A stretch of DNA of 64,000 nt from an uncultured Alphaproteobacteria bacterium (lineage in GTDB: Bacteria; Pseudomonadota; Alphaproteobacteria; SP197): NCBI GenBank assembly GCA_958295695.1, contig OY282363.1:496001-560000 (forward strand), given 5' to 3'. Of the stretch, positions 39,067-47,110 are shown in pieces. Below the pieces are notes generated by a model that was not told the origin of the DNA, searched no databases, and saw only the letters and a program-made list of their open reading frames with translations. A program made the translations under genes and the position numbers. Position 1 is the stretch's first letter. Each line of letters opens with the position of its first letter.

Positions 39067-39438
39067 ATGACCGGGTTTGACCGCGACCCTGGGCTCGACA
39101 CGCTGCTGGAGCTTCACGGCCTGACCCTGTTCGTGGACGATGTCGGGCATTGGGTGAAGTTCGTCGCGCGGCGCGTCGGCGTCACGGTGGAACGGCCGCA
39201 CGGACTCGGCTATTCGCTGACGTTGCACGCACCGGATGGAACGAGGCTCGTCGGCTTCGACAATGCGCATCCGGTGAGGGACCGGCGAGGTCCGGGAAGG
39301 CGGAAACGCGGCGGGAGCGACCACAGACACCGGCTGAGAACCGTCCGGCCCTACGATTACAAGGACGCCGCCGCGCTTCTCGAGGATTTCTGGAACGAGG
39401 TGGACGCGGTTCTGAAGGAAAGGGGATCGATCTCGTGA
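39067..39438 (+). CDS. DUF6516-family protein, probable toxin of a toxin-antitoxin pair
   Basis: The 123-residue protein has LDTLLELHGLTLFVDDVGHWVKFVARRVG, PHGLGYSLTLHAPDGTRLVGFDNAH, HRLRTVRPYDYKDAAALLEDFWNEVDAVL, the order of DUF6516 proteins. They are small partners of HTH regulators in toxin-antitoxin-like loci. The FDNAHPV..R and RPYDY motifs are probably functional, but the biochemical activity is not known to me. The GTGA overlap with the HTH gene and an upstream operator support one operon. It sits directly before the restriction-modification operon. Confidence 0.7.
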   Translation: MTGFDRDPGLDTLLELHGLTLFVDDVGHWVKFVARRVGVTVERPHGLGYSLTLHAPDGTRLVGFDNAHPVRDRRGPGRRKRGGSDHRHRLRTVRPYDYKDAAALLEDFWNEVDAVLKERGSIS

Positions 39439-39815
39439 AAACCCTGACGATCGGCGTCGCCGGCTACGACCGGATGAAGACGCGCACCATGGAGATCGCC
39501 CGTGGCGAACGCAAGCCGACCGAGGGCGAGCCGAGCGTGTGGTTCACCTCCGTGGAGAGCTTCGCGAAGGTTCTCTCGCGGCGCAACCGGGAGCTTTTGG
39601 GGCTGATCGCCCGCGAGAAGCCGGCCTCGCTCACCGAATTGGCGGCGCTCGCGGGGCGAAACAAGTCGAACCTGTCGCGCACGCTCAAGACGATGTCGCG
39701 CTACGGCCTCGTGGAACTGCGGGAAGGACGGCGCGGCGCGCTGATCCCGCGGGTTCCGTACGACCGCGTGAGACTCGACCTCCCGTTGACCTCCACGCCG
39801 CGGCGGGCGGCGTGA
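39435..39815 (+). CDS. HTH-domain antitoxin/transcriptional regulator
   Basis: The 126-residue protein has a winged helix: RNRELLGLIAREKPASLTELAALAGRNKSNLSRTLKTMSRYGLVELREG. The N-terminal part (TIGVAGYDRMKTRTMEIARGERKP, then WFTSVESFAKVLS) matches predicted regulators paired with DUF6516 proteins. It begins at GTG 39435, overlapping the stop of the upstream gene by four bases. It is expected to neutralise its partner and bind the GTTATC/GATAAC operator. The next gene is the DNA methyltransferase 157 bp on. Confidence 0.75.
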   Translation: MKTLTIGVAGYDRMKTRTMEIARGERKPTEGEPSVWFTSVESFAKVLSRRNRELLGLIAREKPASLTELAALAGRNKSNLSRTLKTMSRYGLVELREGRRGALIPRVPYDRVRLDLPLTSTPRRAA

Positions 39816-39972: not shown

Positions 39973-42900
39973 TTGAGCAAGTCCAGATCTGGCGGGACCG
40001 AGGGGTCCGCCGCGCGTCCCGCTCCGGACTCCGGCGAGACGTTCGAGCGGTTGAAATGCGTGCTGCGGGAGATGTTCCAGCTCGACCGCGGCGATCTGGA
40101 TTTCGGCCTCTACCGCGTGATGACCGTGAAGGCGGGCGAGATCGAGGCGTTCCTCGACCGCGACCTTCTGCCCCAGGTGAAGGACGCCCTGGCCGGCGTC
40201 GCGGACGGGGAGCGGGCGCGGACCCGGGCCGAGCTCGACGAGACGGTCGAGCGGCTCACCGCGCTCGAGGCGCCCGTCGAGGACAACGAAAAAGTCCGCG
40301 CCCTGCGCGCCAGGCTGGCGGGGGCGACGGACGACGCGGAGGCCGAGGCCGATGTCTACGGCCATCTCGCCGACTTCTTCGGCCGCTACTACCGCGAGGG
40401 CGATTTCATGTCCTTGCGGCGCTATTCGGGCGGCGGTGGGCCGACCTACCTGATTCCCTACGACGGCGAGGAGGTGAAGCTGCACTGGGCCAACGCCGAC
40501 CAGTACTACATCAAGACCGCCGAGAACTACGCTTCCTACGCCTTCACGTGCGGCGGGGACGCGCGCCGCGTCCGCTTCGAGATCGCGGCGGCCGACAACG
40601 AGAGGGACAACGTCAAGGAGGCCGCGGGCGCCCGGCGCCGCTTCGTGCCGGCGAAGGGCGGCGACGCGGTCGCGCTCGACGGCGGCGACCTGCTGGTCCG
40701 CTTCGAGCACCGGCCGCTGACCGACGCCGAGAAGAAGAGGTGGCCGGGCAACGGCGCCCGGCAACAGGACCGGATCGACGCGGACTCGGCGGCGCGGATC
40801 CTGGAGGCGGCGGAACGGCTGGGGCCGGACTGGCGGGCGGCGCTGGCCGCCCCGGCGCCGACCGGGGCCGACCCCGAACGCACGCTGCTGGCCAGGCACG
40901 TCGCGCGCTACACGGCGAAGAACAGCTTCGACTACTTCATCCACAAGGACCTGGGCGGCTTCCTGCGCCGCGAGCTCGACCTGTACCTGAAGACCGAGGT
41001 CCTGAACGTGGACGACCTGGCGGCGGACGACGCCGGCCGGCTGCGCCGGGCGCTGGCGCGGATGCGCGCCGTCCGCCATGTCGGCGGGAAGATCGTCGAC
41101 TTCCTGGCGCAACTGGAGGACTTTCAGAAGCGCCTCTGGCTCAAGAAGAAGTTCGTGCTGGAGACGCAATGGTGCGTGACGCTGGATCGCGCGCCCGAGG
41201 CGCTCCGGCCGGAGATCGCCGCCAACGAGGCGCAGCGCCGGGAGTGGGCGGACCTGTTCGCCATCGACGGGATCGCGGATGGCGGCGGCGGCGAGGCCCG
41301 CGGCGGGCCGTCGTTCGGGGAGGCGCCGGCGCTCTGGGCCGGCGAGACCGGCGACGGCGAACCCTTGGGCGCCGCGTTCCTCGAGGCGAACCCGCGTCTG
41401 GTGCTGGACACGCGCCACTTCGACGCGGATTTCAGGGACCGCCTGCTGGCCGCGCTCTCCGACGCGGGCCCGCTGGACGAGCGGACCGACGGGCTGCTGG
41501 TCCACGGCGAGAACTTCCAGGCGCTGAACCTGTTGCAAGCGCGCTATGCGGGGCAGGTGCAGTGCGTGTATATCGATCCGCCGTACAACACAGGCGACTC
41601 GGAAATCCTTTACAAGAACGGGTATCTGAGGTCTTCATGGCTATCCTTGATGGCCAACCACTTCGGATGTCTTCAAAATATCCTTTCGCGTGATTCCGTG
41701 CTTTACATTGCTATTGACGATTTTGAGATGGCGAATCTATCGAAATTGGTAGACACGCAATGCCCATGGATGCGACGCGAGATGATCGTAGTCAACCACC
41801 ATCCTCAAGGAGGAAAAGCGAAAACCTTGGCAAGTACCCATGAATATATGTTGGTGTGCATTCCCATAACATCGGACAAGACACTTGCTGGAAGACTGAA
41901 AAACGGTGATGTAGAATTGCGACCTTTCAAACGCAGTGGAACCGCTGAGAGCAATTTCCGCTATGCACGGCCAAACAGCTTCTATGCTATTCTAGTAGAA
42001 CCGGATTCTCAAAGGGTTGTAGGATTGGAACCACCGCCTTCTGGAGATTATCCAACCAGCCGGTCAGAAGACGGCCATATCAGAGTCTATCCAATTGGCG
42101 CTCAAGGCGATGAACGGGTTTGGCGGCGATCTCATGAGTCATGCAGAGAACTTGTTGAAAGTGGCAAATTGGTTTGCTCCAACAGAAGCACGATCTATCA
42201 GAAGATTGAAGCTGGAGAGCGTAGGGCGGCTTTATTTAGTAACTGGATAGGTCCACGATACAATGCAGGAACATTCGGCGCCAACTTGCTAAGCGACATT
42301 ATTGGGAAACCCAATCCTTTCCCTTATCCCAAGTCGATACACACGGTAGGCGATGCTGTGTTTGCGGCCGGCCTCGATAATGGTGCGCCTGTAATGGACT
42401 ACTTCGCCGGGTCCGGGACCACCGGCCATGCGGTCGTCAACCTGAACCGCGAGGACGGCGGCGGGCGCAAGTACATCCTGGTCGAGATGGGCGACCATTT
42501 CGACACGGTGATGCTGCCGCGCCTCAAGAAGGTCGTTTATGCGCCGGACTGGAAGGAGGGCAGGCCGGCCGCGCGCGACAAGGGCGTGTCGCAGGTCATG
42601 AAGTACGTCCGCCTCGAATCCTACGAGGACACGCTGGACGGGCTGGTCCTGACGCCGCCGGACGGCGGCCTTCTGGCGGCGAACGATCCCGCGCTGGTCG
42701 AGGACTACCGGCTGCGCTACGCGCTGGACGCGGAGACCGCCTCCAGCCCCTGCCTCGCCGGGCCGCGCGCCTTCGCCGATCCCTTCGTCTACACGCTCTC
42801 CGTCGTGCGCGACGGCGCGCGCCGCGACGCGCCGGTGGACCTGCCCGAGACCTTCAACCTCCTGCTCGGCCTCGACGTCGAATCCCGCCGCCGCCTCGGC

Positions 42901-43158
42901 GCCGTGCTCGCCATCGCCGGCCGGGACGCGCGAGGCCGGCGTTGCCTCGTCCTCTGGCGCAACCTGGAGGCGACGGACAACGCCGCGCTCAACCGCTGGT
43001 TCGCCGGACATCGGGCCCGCTTCCCCGACCCGCTCGACCTCGTCTACGCCAACGGCGACCACACCCTGAACGCCATCCGCCGAAAGGGCGAAACCTGGAC
43101 CGCCGAGACCATCGAACCCCTGTTCCGCGAACTGATGTTCGAGGAGGGCGGGCGATGA
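39973..43158 (+). CDS. mod: Type III-like restriction-modification DNA methyltransferase (Mod), beta class
   Basis: The 1061-residue protein has an approximately 500-residue N-terminal region starting ETFERLKCVLREMFQLDRGDLDFGLYRVM. Motif IV DPPYNTGD follows at about 535-542, and motif I FAGSGTTGHAVV at about 811-822. DPPY before FxGxG is the beta order of N6-adenine or N4-cytosine methyltransferases. The stretch between the motifs (nt 41590-42390) is the target-recognition part. It is strongly AT-rich: I counted 38% G+C at 41701-41760 against 70% at 40981-41040. It should methylate one strand of an asymmetric site. TTG 39973 is preferred because GGGAG lies upstream and homologues start close by. 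The stop overlaps the AbiJ-like gene (ATGA). Confidence 0.85.
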   Translation: MSKSRSGGTEGSAARPAPDSGETFERLKCVLREMFQLDRGDLDFGLYRVMTVKAGEIEAFLDRDLLPQVKDALAGVADGERARTRAELDETVERLTALEAPVEDNEKVRALRARLAGATDDAEAEADVYGHLADFFGRYYREGDFMSLRRYSGGGGPTYLIPYDGEEVKLHWANADQYYIKTAENYASYAFTCGGDARRVRFEIAAADNERDNVKEAAGARRRFVPAKGGDAVALDGGDLLVRFEHRPLTDAEKKRWPGNGARQQDRIDADSAARILEAAERLGPDWRAALAAPAPTGADPERTLLARHVARYTAKNSFDYFIHKDLGGFLRRELDLYLKTEVLNVDDLAADDAGRLRRALARMRAVRHVGGKIVDFLAQLEDFQKRLWLKKKFVLETQWCVTLDRAPEALRPEIAANEAQRREWADLFAIDGIADGGGGEARGGPSFGEAPALWAGETGDGEPLGAAFLEANPRLVLDTRHFDADFRDRLLAALSDAGPLDERTDGLLVHGENFQALNLLQARYAGQVQCVYIDPPYNTGDSEILYKNGYLRSSWLSLMANHFGCLQNILSRDSVLYIAIDDFEMANLSKLVDTQCPWMRREMIVVNHHPQGGKAKTLASTHEYMLVCIPITSDKTLAGRLKNGDVELRPFKRSGTAESNFRYARPNSFYAILVEPDSQRVVGLEPPPSGDYPTSRSEDGHIRVYPIGAQGDERVWRRSHESCRELVESGKLVCSNRSTIYQKIEAGERRAALFSNWIGPRYNAGTFGANLLSDIIGKPNPFPYPKSIHTVGDAVFAAGLDNGAPVMDYFAGSGTTGHAVVNLNREDGGGRKYILVEMGDHFDTVMLPRLKKVVYAPDWKEGRPAARDKGVSQVMKYVRLESYEDTLDGLVLTPPDGGLLAANDPALVEDYRLRYALDAETASSPCLAGPRAFADPFVYTLSVVRDGARRDAPVDLPETFNLLLGLDVESRRRLGAVLAIAGRDARGRRCLVLWRNLEATDNAALNRWFAGHRARFPDPLDLVYANGDHTLNAIRRKGETWTAETIEPLFRELMFEEGGR

Positions 43159-44045
43159 CCGCCGAGCGCGAAGACGTCCCGGAGCGCCTCACCTTTTCGC
43201 AACGCCACGGCTACGAGCCATTGCCGGAGCCGATGCGTCTGGAGGAAATCTCGGGCAGTTTACGGCGAGAGCTATGGAACGCAGTTCGTTTATTTCTCTT
43301 GGAAAAAACTGAAATATATAATGCTAAACGTGCAGATGTTAGATTCACAGATGCTAGATTCATCGAACGTGTTTTAGGAAGATTTACAAAACGCCCAGAA
43401 AGCCATGTTTCAACTGAATACGAAAAAGTTATGAGAGACTTCGATCTCGTTTTTGTAAACGGAAAATTCAATAATGTTCTCGATCTTTTGGAAATCATGG
43501 TTGATGAGCTATCGCATCCGGATGAGTTTGCAAGTCGGATTGGAAATTTGTTCGACAAGCACGTCGCGGCTTACTGGCTGGATATGTCGCAATACCCTTA
43601 CCGGTTCTTCCCGCGCGCGAGCGGGGAGCAGGGAGAGGCGACGCGGCAAGCCATCGAAACGGTCCGCCAAGGCGGCATGGACGGTTCGGCGACACATCTG
43701 CGTCAAGCTGCGGAACACATCAACGCCGGACAATACGCCGATTCGATCGCTGACAGCATCCATGCCGTCGAATCGGTCGCGCGCACGATCGATCCGGGGT
43801 CCGGCAAGACCCTCGGGCCGGCGTTGAAGTCCTTGGAGAGAGCCGGGGTCCTGAAACATCCGGCGCTCGGGGGAGCGTTCGAAAAGCTCTACGGCTATAC
43901 GAACGACGAACAGGGCGTCCGCCATGCTCTCTTGGACAGGGACGCTCCCGATGTCGGCCTGGACGAGGCCATGTTCATGTTCGGGGCCTGCGCCTCCTTC
44001 GCCGCCTATCTGACCGGGAAACACCGGCGGGCCGGCGGCGCATGA
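43155..44045 (+). CDS. AbiJ-NTD4-domain, HEPN-like abortive-infection-type protein
   Basis: The 296-residue protein has an N-terminal AbiJ-NTD4-type domain (about residues 12-130): LTFSQRHGYEPLPEPMRLEEISGSLRRELWNAVRLF, then FIERVLGRFTKR. The C-terminal helical domain (about 170-290) has HLRQAAEHINAGQYADSIADSIHAVESVARTI, KTLGPALKSLERAG and LYGYTNDEQGVRHALLDRD. Family members of this kind are HEPN-like. The conserved R-H pair is adjacent (VRHAL) rather than spaced as in the Rx4-6H RNase motif, so nuclease activity is uncertain. Residues about 35-135 are encoded by AT-rich DNA (38% G+C at 43321-43380). It overlaps both mod and res by four bases. Confidence 0.72.
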   Translation: MTAEREDVPERLTFSQRHGYEPLPEPMRLEEISGSLRRELWNAVRLFLLEKTEIYNAKRADVRFTDARFIERVLGRFTKRPESHVSTEYEKVMRDFDLVFVNGKFNNVLDLLEIMVDELSHPDEFASRIGNLFDKHVAAYWLDMSQYPYRFFPRASGEQGEATRQAIETVRQGGMDGSATHLRQAAEHINAGQYADSIADSIHAVESVARTIDPGSGKTLGPALKSLERAGVLKHPALGGAFEKLYGYTNDEQGVRHALLDRDAPDVGLDEAMFMFGACASFAAYLTGKHRRAGGA

Positions 44046-47000
44046 CTCCCCTCGAAAACCGCCTCGTCCTGCACCGCTTCCTGTGCCGGGAGTTCGGCTA
44101 CGACGACCTCGCCGCCATGCTCGACCGGTTGCGGGACGTTCCGGCCGGCTTCGTCGCCGGCGGGGAGAGCGAATACGCCCGCGCGCTCTACCTGAACCCG
44201 GACAGGGCCGGGATCGCCCCGGACCGCTTCGCCGACTACGACGCCGAGATCGCCAACCTCAGCCGGCGGCTGCGCATGGCGGGCGACCGCGGCCGGGGCT
44301 GGAAGCCGCACCAGTGGCTCGCCCTGCTGTTCGCCGAACACTACCTGCGCCGCTATTTCGAGGACCCCGAGGCGCTGCGCCGCGACCTGAACAAGGCGAA
44401 ACAGCGGGAGCGGCCGACCGCCTCGATGCCGGACTACACGGCGGCGGACCTGCGCACCGTCGCCGTGCAGTCCGCCACCGGCTCGGGCAAGACGCTGGTC
44501 ATGCACGCCCACATCCTGCAGTACCGGCGTCTGGCCGGCGCGGCGGGCCGGCGGCCCAACAACGTCATCCTGGTGACGCCGAACGAGCGGCTTTCGGCGC
44601 AGCACGAGCGCGAGTTTCGGGAGAGCAACCTGCCCGCCCGGCTGTTCTCCGCCGAGGCCGGGACGGACCTGCTGGGGCCCATCGAGATCGTCGACATCAA
44701 CAAGCTGGCCGAGAAGAAGGGCGTGAAGCGGGTCGCCGTGGGCGACTTCGGCGACGACAACCTCGTGCTGGTGGACGAAGGGCACCTCGGCGCGTCCGGC
44801 AAGGTCTGGCGGGCGCTGCGGGCGGAACTGGCGCGCGGCGGCTTCGCGTTCGAATACTCCGCCACCTTCAACCAGATCGCCGCCAGGGACGACGGCCTGC
44901 GCGACGCCTACGGCAAGTGCCTGCTGTTCGACTACCCCTACCGCGCCTTCCACGCCGACGGCTACGGCAAGGACTACGCCATCTCCAACCTGCCGCGAGG
45001 CGCCGAGGACGCGAACAGCGATATGTACCTGCTGGGCTGCCTGCTGAGCTTCTACCGGCAGTGCCGCATCTGGCGCGAAGGGCGCGCCGGCTGGACGGAC
45101 TTCAACGTCACCCGGCCGCTCTGGGTCTTCCTCGGCAAGACGGTGACGGGGAAGACCGCCGCGGACGAGGCCACCAAGTCGGACGTGGCGCGGATTCTCG
45201 ACTTCCTCGGCTGGGCGCTGGCCCATGGCGACGCCGTCCGCCCCATGATCGCGCGCCTGCTCGACGGCGAATCGGGATTGACCGACGACGCGGGCGCCGA
45301 CTTCTTCGCCGGCCGGTTCGACGACCTGAAGGGCGAAAGCGCCGACGCGCTCTACGACGACCTCCGCCGGACCCTGTTCCACGGGCCGGGACGGCTGCGC
45401 GTCCGCTACCTCACCCAGGGCGAAGGGGAGCTCCACCTGCGCACCGCCGACAACGCGCCCTTCGGCGTGGTCAACATCGGCGATTCGGCCGCGCTCCACG
45501 GATTGCTGACCGAAGCCGGCAACCCCGATCTCGCCGTCGAGCGGGAGGCCGGGTTCGCCCGGCGGCTGTTCGCCGACGTGGACCGGGCGGACTCGACGGT
45601 GAACGTCGTGATCGGCGCCCGCCGCTTCATCGCCGGCTGGAACTCGTGGCGGGTGAGCACCATGGGGCTGATGCATGTCGGCGTCGGCGAGGGGCCGGAG
45701 ATCGTCCAGATGTTCGGGCGCGGCGTGCGGCTGAAGGGCTGGAACATGAGCCTGAAGCGCCACCGCGAGAGCGGGGCCGAGCCTCCCGCCGACGGCGACC
45801 GGCTGGCGGAACTGGAGACCCTGCGCATCTTCGGGCTGCGCGCGAACTACATGCGGACCTTCCGGGACATGCTGGACACGGACGGGATCGCCGTGGAACG
45901 GGAGACCGTCAAGCTGCCCGTCACCTGGAACTTCGCCGGGAAGGACCTGAAGATCGTCCGGCTGAAACGGGATCTGAAGTATGAAACGTCCGATGACCGC
46001 CCCGTCCTGCCGGGACCCGGCGGCAAGGACAGCCCGACCGTCGAGATGGACCTCCATTCCCGCTTGCAGGCCGTCGATTCGGGCGACCGCGGGGACGGCC
46101 CGGCGGCGGACCGGGCTCCGGTCAAGCTGGAGCCGCGCCACATCGCCCTGTTCGACCGCGGGCGCATCCACGACGGGCTGCTCGCGCGCAAGCTGCGGGA
46201 GGGCTGGCACAACCTCTCCATCGGCCGCGCGGCCGTGGACGCGCTGCTGGACCGGGACGACTGGTACACGCTCCGCCTGCCGCCGGAACGGCTGGCGCCG
46301 AAGAGCTATGCGGACTTGCGGAAGCTGGAGGACATCGCCGTCGAACTGATCGCCGAATACGCGGCCCGGTTCTGGCGGACGCGGCGCGCGCGATGGGAGA
46401 TCGGCAACATCGAGACGAAGGCGCTCGACGAATGCGACGACAACAACATCCGCGAATACGCGCTGTCGGTCGACGCCAGGGAAACGCGACCGATCGGGGA
46501 CCTTCGAGCCCTCGTCTCGAACCTCCGGGAAGGCCCGCTCCGCCATCTGGGATTCGGCCTCCTCATGCGGAACGCCCACGCCTACAAGCCGTTGCTGTAT
46601 GCGACGACGACCGGAAAGGGCGAGGTCGCGGTCCAGCCCGCGCCCCTGAACGACGGCGAGAAGCAGGTCGTCGAGAAACTGGCCGATCTGGCCGGGGCGG
46701 GCGATCCCTGCCTGCGGGGCCGGGAACTGTTCCTGATCCGCAACCTCGGCCGGGGGCGCGGCGTGTCCTTCTTCGACGACCACGCCTACTATCCCGACTT
46801 CATCGTCTGGCTGGTGGACGGCGCGAGCCAGCACATCGTCTTCCTCGACCCGAAGGGACTGGTCCGGTTCGGTCCCGAGGAACGCGGGAAGGTGGGCCTG
46901 CACACCGGGATCGAGAAGATCGAGAAACGGGTGCGCGAGGAGGACCCGAGCTTGCGGCTGCACGCCTACGTCCTCTCCGTCACGGCCCCCGACAAGATCG

Positions 47001-47110
47001 GCGACGCGCCGAGGACGAAGGAGGAATGGGAAGAAGACGGCGTCTACTTCATGGAGGACGCCGACTGGCCGCGTCGGGTGCTGACGGATGTTCTCGGGCC
47101 GGCGCCGTAG
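44042..47110 (+). CDS. res: Type III-like restriction subunit (Res), SF2 helicase with C-terminal nuclease
   Basis: The 1022-residue protein has SF2 motor motifs: SATGSGKT (Walker A, 144-151), VTPNERL (Ia), LVDEGH (motif II, 243-248), FEYSATF (III) and IVQMFGRGVRLKG (VI, about 552-564). Near the C-terminus, YYPDFIVWLVDG and IVFLDPKG give a PD-(D)xK nuclease core. This is the domain order of type III Res proteins, which act with Mod to cut unmethylated DNA after ATP-dependent translocation. DEGH instead of DExH is normal in this subgroup. It is coupled to the AbiJ-like gene (ATGA). Its DNA is GC-rich throughout, unlike the AT-rich blocks of the two genes upstream. Confidence 0.88.
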   Translation: MTPLENRLVLHRFLCREFGYDDLAAMLDRLRDVPAGFVAGGESEYARALYLNPDRAGIAPDRFADYDAEIANLSRRLRMAGDRGRGWKPHQWLALLFAEHYLRRYFEDPEALRRDLNKAKQRERPTASMPDYTAADLRTVAVQSATGSGKTLVMHAHILQYRRLAGAAGRRPNNVILVTPNERLSAQHEREFRESNLPARLFSAEAGTDLLGPIEIVDINKLAEKKGVKRVAVGDFGDDNLVLVDEGHLGASGKVWRALRAELARGGFAFEYSATFNQIAARDDGLRDAYGKCLLFDYPYRAFHADGYGKDYAISNLPRGAEDANSDMYLLGCLLSFYRQCRIWREGRAGWTDFNVTRPLWVFLGKTVTGKTAADEATKSDVARILDFLGWALAHGDAVRPMIARLLDGESGLTDDAGADFFAGRFDDLKGESADALYDDLRRTLFHGPGRLRVRYLTQGEGELHLRTADNAPFGVVNIGDSAALHGLLTEAGNPDLAVEREAGFARRLFADVDRADSTVNVVIGARRFIAGWNSWRVSTMGLMHVGVGEGPEIVQMFGRGVRLKGWNMSLKRHRESGAEPPADGDRLAELETLRIFGLRANYMRTFRDMLDTDGIAVERETVKLPVTWNFAGKDLKIVRLKRDLKYETSDDRPVLPGPGGKDSPTVEMDLHSRLQAVDSGDRGDGPAADRAPVKLEPRHIALFDRGRIHDGLLARKLREGWHNLSIGRAAVDALLDRDDWYTLRLPPERLAPKSYADLRKLEDIAVELIAEYAARFWRTRRARWEIGNIETKALDECDDNNIREYALSVDARETRPIGDLRALVSNLREGPLRHLGFGLLMRNAHAYKPLLYATTTGKGEVAVQPAPLNDGEKQVVEKLADLAGAGDPCLRGRELFLIRNLGRGRGVSFFDDHAYYPDFIVWLVDGASQHIVFLDPKGLVRFGPEERGKVGLHTGIEKIEKRVREEDPSLRLHAYVLSVTAPDKIGDAPRTKEEWEEDGVYFMEDADWPRRVLTDVLGPAP

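Follow-up and report, generated by a model that had tools for sequence, protein, structure and literature searches.

A predicted abortive-infection gene between mod and res: an AbiJ_NTD4 protein in a type III-type restriction–modification operon of an uncultured alphaproteobacterium

What does a gene of abortive-infection type do between the two genes of a type III restriction–modification (R-M) enzyme? The question is raised by contig OY282363.1 (assembly GCA_958295695.1) of an uncultured alphaproteobacterium, of which a stretch of 64,000 nucleotides, positions 496,001 to 560,000, is referred to here as the window. In this window an AbiJ_NTD4 gene, designated mid, lies between mod and res. 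The original prediction described three genes joined by ATGA overlaps at 43155 and 44042 and offered three roles for the middle protein: a third, stoichiometric subunit, a backup killer triggered when restriction fails, or a control that delays Res. The overlaps are confirmed in the sequence, where the three open reading frames (ORFs) are co-directional. The explanation judged probable makes mid an abortive-infection gene that acts autonomously through a single protein and that type III R-M operons carry as cargo, in a recurrent slot between their mod and res genes. The operon is composed as follows.

39973..43158, + strand: mod, type III-type beta-class DNA methyltransferase with a TTG start (PF01555, PADLOC MTase_III, motifs)
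41773..42372, + strand: central hypervariable part of Mod, about amino acids 601-800, between motifs IV and I, presumed target-recognition domain (identity, profile of GC at third codon positions, GC3)
43138..43146 (approximate), + strand: GAGGAGGG, a Shine-Dalgarno-like sequence serving mid, within the conserved Mod C-terminal codons (MFEE) (sequence reading)
43155..44045, + strand: mid, AbiJ_NTD4 and HEPN-fold protein of 296 amino acids with an ATGA overlap at each end (PF18863, PADLOC PDC-S32, AlphaFold2 model)
43155..43610, + strand: N-terminal half of mid, amino acids 1-152, AbiJ-NTD4, hypervariable and exchanged between lineages, presumed sensor
43611..44042, + strand: C-terminal half of mid, amino acids 153-296, HEPN fold, conserved, with an invariant R256-H257, presumed effector
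44042..47110, + strand: res, type III-type superfamily 2 (SF2) helicase with a PD-(D/E)xK nuclease motif, 1022 amino acids (PF04851, PADLOC REase_III, motifs)

The mod ORF opens at TTG 39916; its start was taken at TTG 39973, which is preceded by GGGAG and matches the starts of homologous Mod proteins, and its stop lies at 43156-43158. mid runs from ATG 43155 to a stop at 44043-44045, and res from ATG 44042 to a stop ending at 47110. Mod matches N6_N4_Mtase (PF01555, 3e-16) and PADLOC MTase_III (2e-204), and has the beta-class order, with motif IV (DPPY, amino acid 535) before motif I (FAGSGT, amino acid 811) and the hypervariable region at 600-800 between them. Res matches ResIII (PF04851, 5e-9) and PADLOC REase_III (2e-141) and carries GSGKT at amino acid 147, DEGH at 245 and PD...DPK from 918. 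By motifs and profiles the pair is thus a type III R-M system with predicted methylation and cleavage activity. A consensus scan, the only promoter search made, found no promoter-like site on the + strand between mod and mid; co-transcription and the two overlaps would tie the dose of mid to that of Mod and Res. mid is single-copy in the host genome. Among the searched genomes of the host class, a Res match was absent from one congener and two family members of the host, so the operon seems to have a patchy distribution.

Recurrence of the operon and persistence of mid without it

When 84,980 species genomes were scanned, 16 relatives of mid were recovered, at 42-59% identity. The order mod–mid–res recurs in five of them (L006, L008, L010, L012 and L013), a sixth (L003) follows mod at a contig end, a seventh (L004) lies upstream of mod-res, and the remaining nine have no mod or res nearby. 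In seven of the nine genomes with such an orphan mid, several of which are metagenome-assembled, no Res was found at E<=1e-10. Four orphans (L005, L009, L011, L015) are directly preceded by a 3' relic of mod, whose last codons read IEPxFRELMFE and variants. This tail pattern, written after the relics had been seen and scanned over all loci available at that time, some of them overlapping, gave 19 matches in 2.3 million translated residues, each of them either at the end of a mod or immediately in front of mid. The retained tail holds the Shine-Dalgarno-like sequence of mid, which may be why it was kept. L009, L010 and L015 have flanking genes in common, part of which are also found in L013. 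The orphan ORFs are intact, and the ratio of nonsynonymous to synonymous substitutions (dN/dS) is alike for orphan–embedded pairs (0.26 for L009-L010, 0.19 for L015-L013) and for embedded pairs (0.25 and 0.20). Together, the mod relics, intact ORFs and low dN/dS indicate that these mid genes were once embedded, lost mod and res, and stayed under selection, which makes a subunit less likely, and likewise a toxin in need of restraint by Mod or Res.

Two loci show further traces of rearrangement. At L008 (6709-7998), the 3' end of mod is present a second time, as a broken copy that stands directly before mid and after a 285-amino-acid gene of no known family, while a mod split by a frameshift or an error lies further upstream; the duplicated tail hints that cargo enters by recombination within it. 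At L013 (8945-11299), mid is followed by a res 5' relic, whose alignment scores above all 500 shuffles, then by an IS30-like transposase gene, a likely HigBA-type pair with another helix-turn-helix gene, and a full res. Candidate res relics 3' of mid in L009 formed a suggestive pattern; their alignment scores did not exceed those of shuffles, and they were not used.

The strongest competitor, itself considered unlikely, is a guard of the PrrC kind, in which Mod and/or Res hold mid in check until a phage inhibits the R-M enzyme and so sets the toxin free. According to two papers (PMC3710099, PMC12707154), it has a precedent in PrrC of the EcoprrI type IC operon and accords with a general proposal for R-M-linked HEPN proteins; the overlaps on both sides of mid and its recurrence between mod and res would also suit it. 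If Mod or Res were the restraint, however, their loss should lead to cell death or to selection for broken mid, whereas mid is intact and under purifying selection in genomes without Res in which only a 3' relic of mod is left. More distant relatives, at about 28-38% identity, also stand alone in IMG/VR contigs and phages; in the temperate Curtobacterium phage Barebow the relative adjoins a tyrosine integrase gene. The ABC-ATPase N-terminus typical of PrrC-type guards is replaced in mid by a match to AbiJ_NTD4. The backup killer of the original prediction is the best supported of its three roles, with a trigger that is probably its own and not release from intact Mod and Res.

A chance insertion of a defence-island gene, in frame by accident, is a rather improbable account. 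Defence genes do cluster, and mid is found elsewhere too; the same position with start/stop overlap nevertheless occurs in several distant lineages, the relics show that the mod-res context is ancestral for several orphans, and in other operons many genes between mod and res run in line with them and several overlap them. The arrangement was found in relatives from Nitrospirota, Acidobacteriota and Pseudomonadota, and searches led by Res, which spanned several phyla, added one further case (L082). This recurrence in distant phyla makes the arrangement more than chance.

An obligatory third subunit of the type III enzyme is very unlikely. The overlaps on both sides speak for it, as does the presence of mid in most of the closest relatives of the window Res, which were found largely through mid. 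Two related operons consist of mod and res without mid: L075, whose Res is 66% identical to that of the window and whose genes are separated by 37-40 bp, and L083, at 42% identity with a 4-bp overlap. mid is therefore dispensable to the R-M system in close relatives, and in the Res tree L075 is the nearest relative of the window (support 84/86). The upstream position of mid in L004 and the orphans point the same way, as does the finding that operon-borne mid proteins do not form one clade (approximately unbiased test, p about 1e-43).

Fold and variable N-terminus of mid

The mid protein exceeds the curated cut-off of AbiJ_NTD4 (PF18863; 3.9e-11, 44.1 bits against 34 bits), as do seven of its relatives and three plasmid proteins, and over residues 12-290 it gives a full-length match to the PADLOC candidate PDC-S32 (1e-53). 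A TetR_C_46 match (0.0085, under the cut-off) was taken as chance. Searching the mid profile against PDB sequences returned chance matches only, and a comparison of folds was needed. In the AlphaFold2 model (pLDDT 78.6, pTM 0.74) the N-terminal half is alpha+beta and the C-terminal half helical. Foldseek returned no match to the model at E<=0.001. In a second structure comparison (VIA), residues 171-290 reached Z 12.4 to 1ufb, 12.3 to 2hsb and 11.9 to 3o10, values to be read with the caveat that helical bundles can reach high Z by chance; MntA-HepT and other HEPN chains rank next, and unrelated rows start near Z 6. According to the model, the C-terminal half has a HEPN fold.

The label AbiJ-NTD4/HEPN-like holds for the profile match and the modelled fold and not for the motif, on which the HEPN assignment does not rest: in mid and in all relatives read, the canonical HEPN RNase motif R-x4-6-H is absent. 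An invariant G-x-R-H stands in its place across the aligned family, and the R-H pair is also found in the three plasmid proteins and in six viral-contig relatives. Model confidence around this pair is low (pLDDT <50 at 249-265). Three HepT-type proteins that occupy the same position in other mod-res operons have R-x4-H-x-Y.

The two halves of mid differ sharply in conservation. Mean identity is 33% for the N-terminal domain (NTD) and 63% for the C-terminal domain (CTD), and the CTD is the more conserved in 136/136 pairs. The NTDs form two groups (100/100) with which the CTD tree disagrees: in it L008 and L015 are sisters (100/99) although their NTDs belong to different groups, and forcing an NTD group together on the CTD data gives p 0.04. 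The NTD has thus been exchanged between lineages. Base composition agrees, since four-fold sites in the window mid have a GC of 0.33 in the NTD against 0.87 in the CTD, and the NTD lies under the CTD value in 14 of 17 mid relatives (p 0.005). In Mod, GC3 is 0.41-0.46 in the recognition region and about 0.9 around it, and relatives share 21-27% identity in the central region but 46-79% in most of the remaining protein. We read the low GC3 of the mid NTD as repeated import, as for Mod recognition domains, while other causes of low GC3 are possible.

On these grounds, the hypervariable, exchangeable AbiJ-NTD4 domain would sense a phage-derived signal or a phage-induced change. The conserved HEPN-fold C-terminus would be the effector, probably an RNase whose usual catalytic motif is replaced by the adjacent R-H pair, and would halt the infected cell, through suicide or dormancy, once restriction alone fails. 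As the genomic relics suggest, mid would not be needed to build the R-M enzyme and would be tolerated without it. Several points weigh against this explanation. The usual RNase motif is missing, and the abortive-infection and RNase activity of the family is probably best regarded as a prediction from sequence and fold. The sensor role of the NTD is presumed from its variability and by analogy with a proposal of 2013. In the metagenome-assembled genomes the missing Res could reflect incompleteness, although the mod relics are still direct evidence of mod loss there. Finally, a functional link could still lie behind the repeated capture at mod-res.

Other genes between mod and res

Beyond mid, the gap between mod and res often holds other genes. 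In the Res-led sample, which is phylogenetically uneven because groups were chosen partly around mid-carrying genomes, 22 of 52 mod-res pairs (42%) carry an insertion (gap >200 bp) and 30 overlap directly or are adjacent. The refuting condition set in the original prediction, that homologous operons almost never carry mid, received a mixed answer: most close Res relatives do, and in the wider branch the insertion is usually another toxin-like gene. A timing device, in which mid, or the length of it, would hold back Res until the DNA had been methylated, is scarcely credible, for although delayed Res translation has been reported for EcoP15I (PMC12707154) and mid lies in the appropriate place, directly overlapping or adjacent pairs are common and include the closest relative, the other insertions vary in number and length, a conserved fold under purifying selection exceeds the role of a spacer, and no evidence for such a control was found.

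The term slot describes the contents of the mod-res gap and does not denote a tested enrichment over neighbouring boundaries; ORFs in it were called by length, with the + strand preferred. The occupants, assigned by Pfam except where stated, include:

HepT or MNT/HEPN: L074, L079, L089, L090, L091
Fic: L070, L087, L092
YhcG: L073, L119, L125
RhuM: L065
DUF559: L120
AAA ATPase: L088
AAA ATPase with DUF4276: L138, 3777-5554, Aeromonas media plasmid pE31A (Pfam; PADLOC HEC-01A/B)
AbiJ (mid): L082

With L082 counted, a HEPN-fold protein occupies six of the 22 filled slots. At L138 all three junctions are one-base overlaps, and the ATPase has a further match, to AriA, which is weaker than that to HEC-01A. 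No Pfam match was obtained for the slot gene of L044 (596-1345) or for the 496-amino-acid slot gene of L117, where a second gene of 249 amino acids is also present. It is tentatively proposed that in this type III branch the mod-res junction is a dedicated slot that swaps whole guardian modules (AbiJ/HEPN, MNT-HepT, Fic, YhcG, RhuM, ATPase with DUF4276), and that in the AbiJ version two specificity parts, the target-recognition domain of Mod and the sensor of AbiJ, are replaced independently of each other while the chassis stays conserved.

Neighbouring genes were also noted outside the slot. In the window, at 39067-39815 on the + strand directly 5' of mod, a TumE-like toxin gene (PF20126) overlaps an HVO_A0114-type winged-helix gene (PF25212), likely a toxin–antitoxin pair. 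On plasmids L136, L137 and L139, an SNF2-related gene adjoins the mod-res of relatives of the window Res.

Relation to known systems and significance

R-M-linked HEPN genes have been known since 2013. In the available text of Anantharaman et al. (PMC3710099), the AbiJ-NTD4 plus HEPN architecture shared by mid is described, and a link to R-M genes, which mid shares, is drawn for at least 16 HEPN clades, with a second line of defence as their proposed role; an AbiJ_NTD4 gene placed between the mod and res genes of a type III operon is not mentioned in that text. The mid orphans do not sit easily with its proposal that the HEPN protein is held back by R-M subunits. The EcoprrI locus offers a close parallel, in that PrrC, an RNase with a HEPN-type domain, is likewise a suicide protein whose gene lies within an R-M operon (PMC3710099, PMC12707154). 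PrrC, however, has an ABC-ATPase N-terminus and belongs to a type I locus, whereas mid has AbiJ-NTD4, lies in a type III locus and is also kept in the absence of R-M.

Type III systems with an extra gene are also on record: BspHIV and Eco86II carry a helicase-like gene 5' of mod whose role is unclear there (PMC8259958), of which the SNF2-related plasmid neighbours are reminiscent. That extra gene encodes an ATPase and lies outside mod-res, in contrast to the AbiJ/HEPN gene between mod and res described here. PARIS (AriAB) is an independent guard that answers antirestriction proteins (PMC12707154), and mid would likewise be independent; PARIS has an ATPase, whereas mid is a single HEPN-fold protein without one, and among the slot occupants it is the L138 ATPase that resembles AriA. 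No paper naming or experimentally examining PDC-S32, the defence candidate that the whole mid protein matches, was found, and none on genes between mod and res among open-licence papers; within the literature so covered, the mod-res slot was not found described.

The repeated capture of toxin-like genes between mod and res offers an easy rule by which defence genes not yet recognised can be searched for. If the proposed slot is real, restriction specificity and the suicide trigger would both be re-tunable in the AbiJ-type operon. Orphan mid genes with mod relics constitute a natural experiment that separates a guard held by R-M from an autonomous second line of defence, two readings between which no choice is usually made for HEPN proteins linked to R-M.

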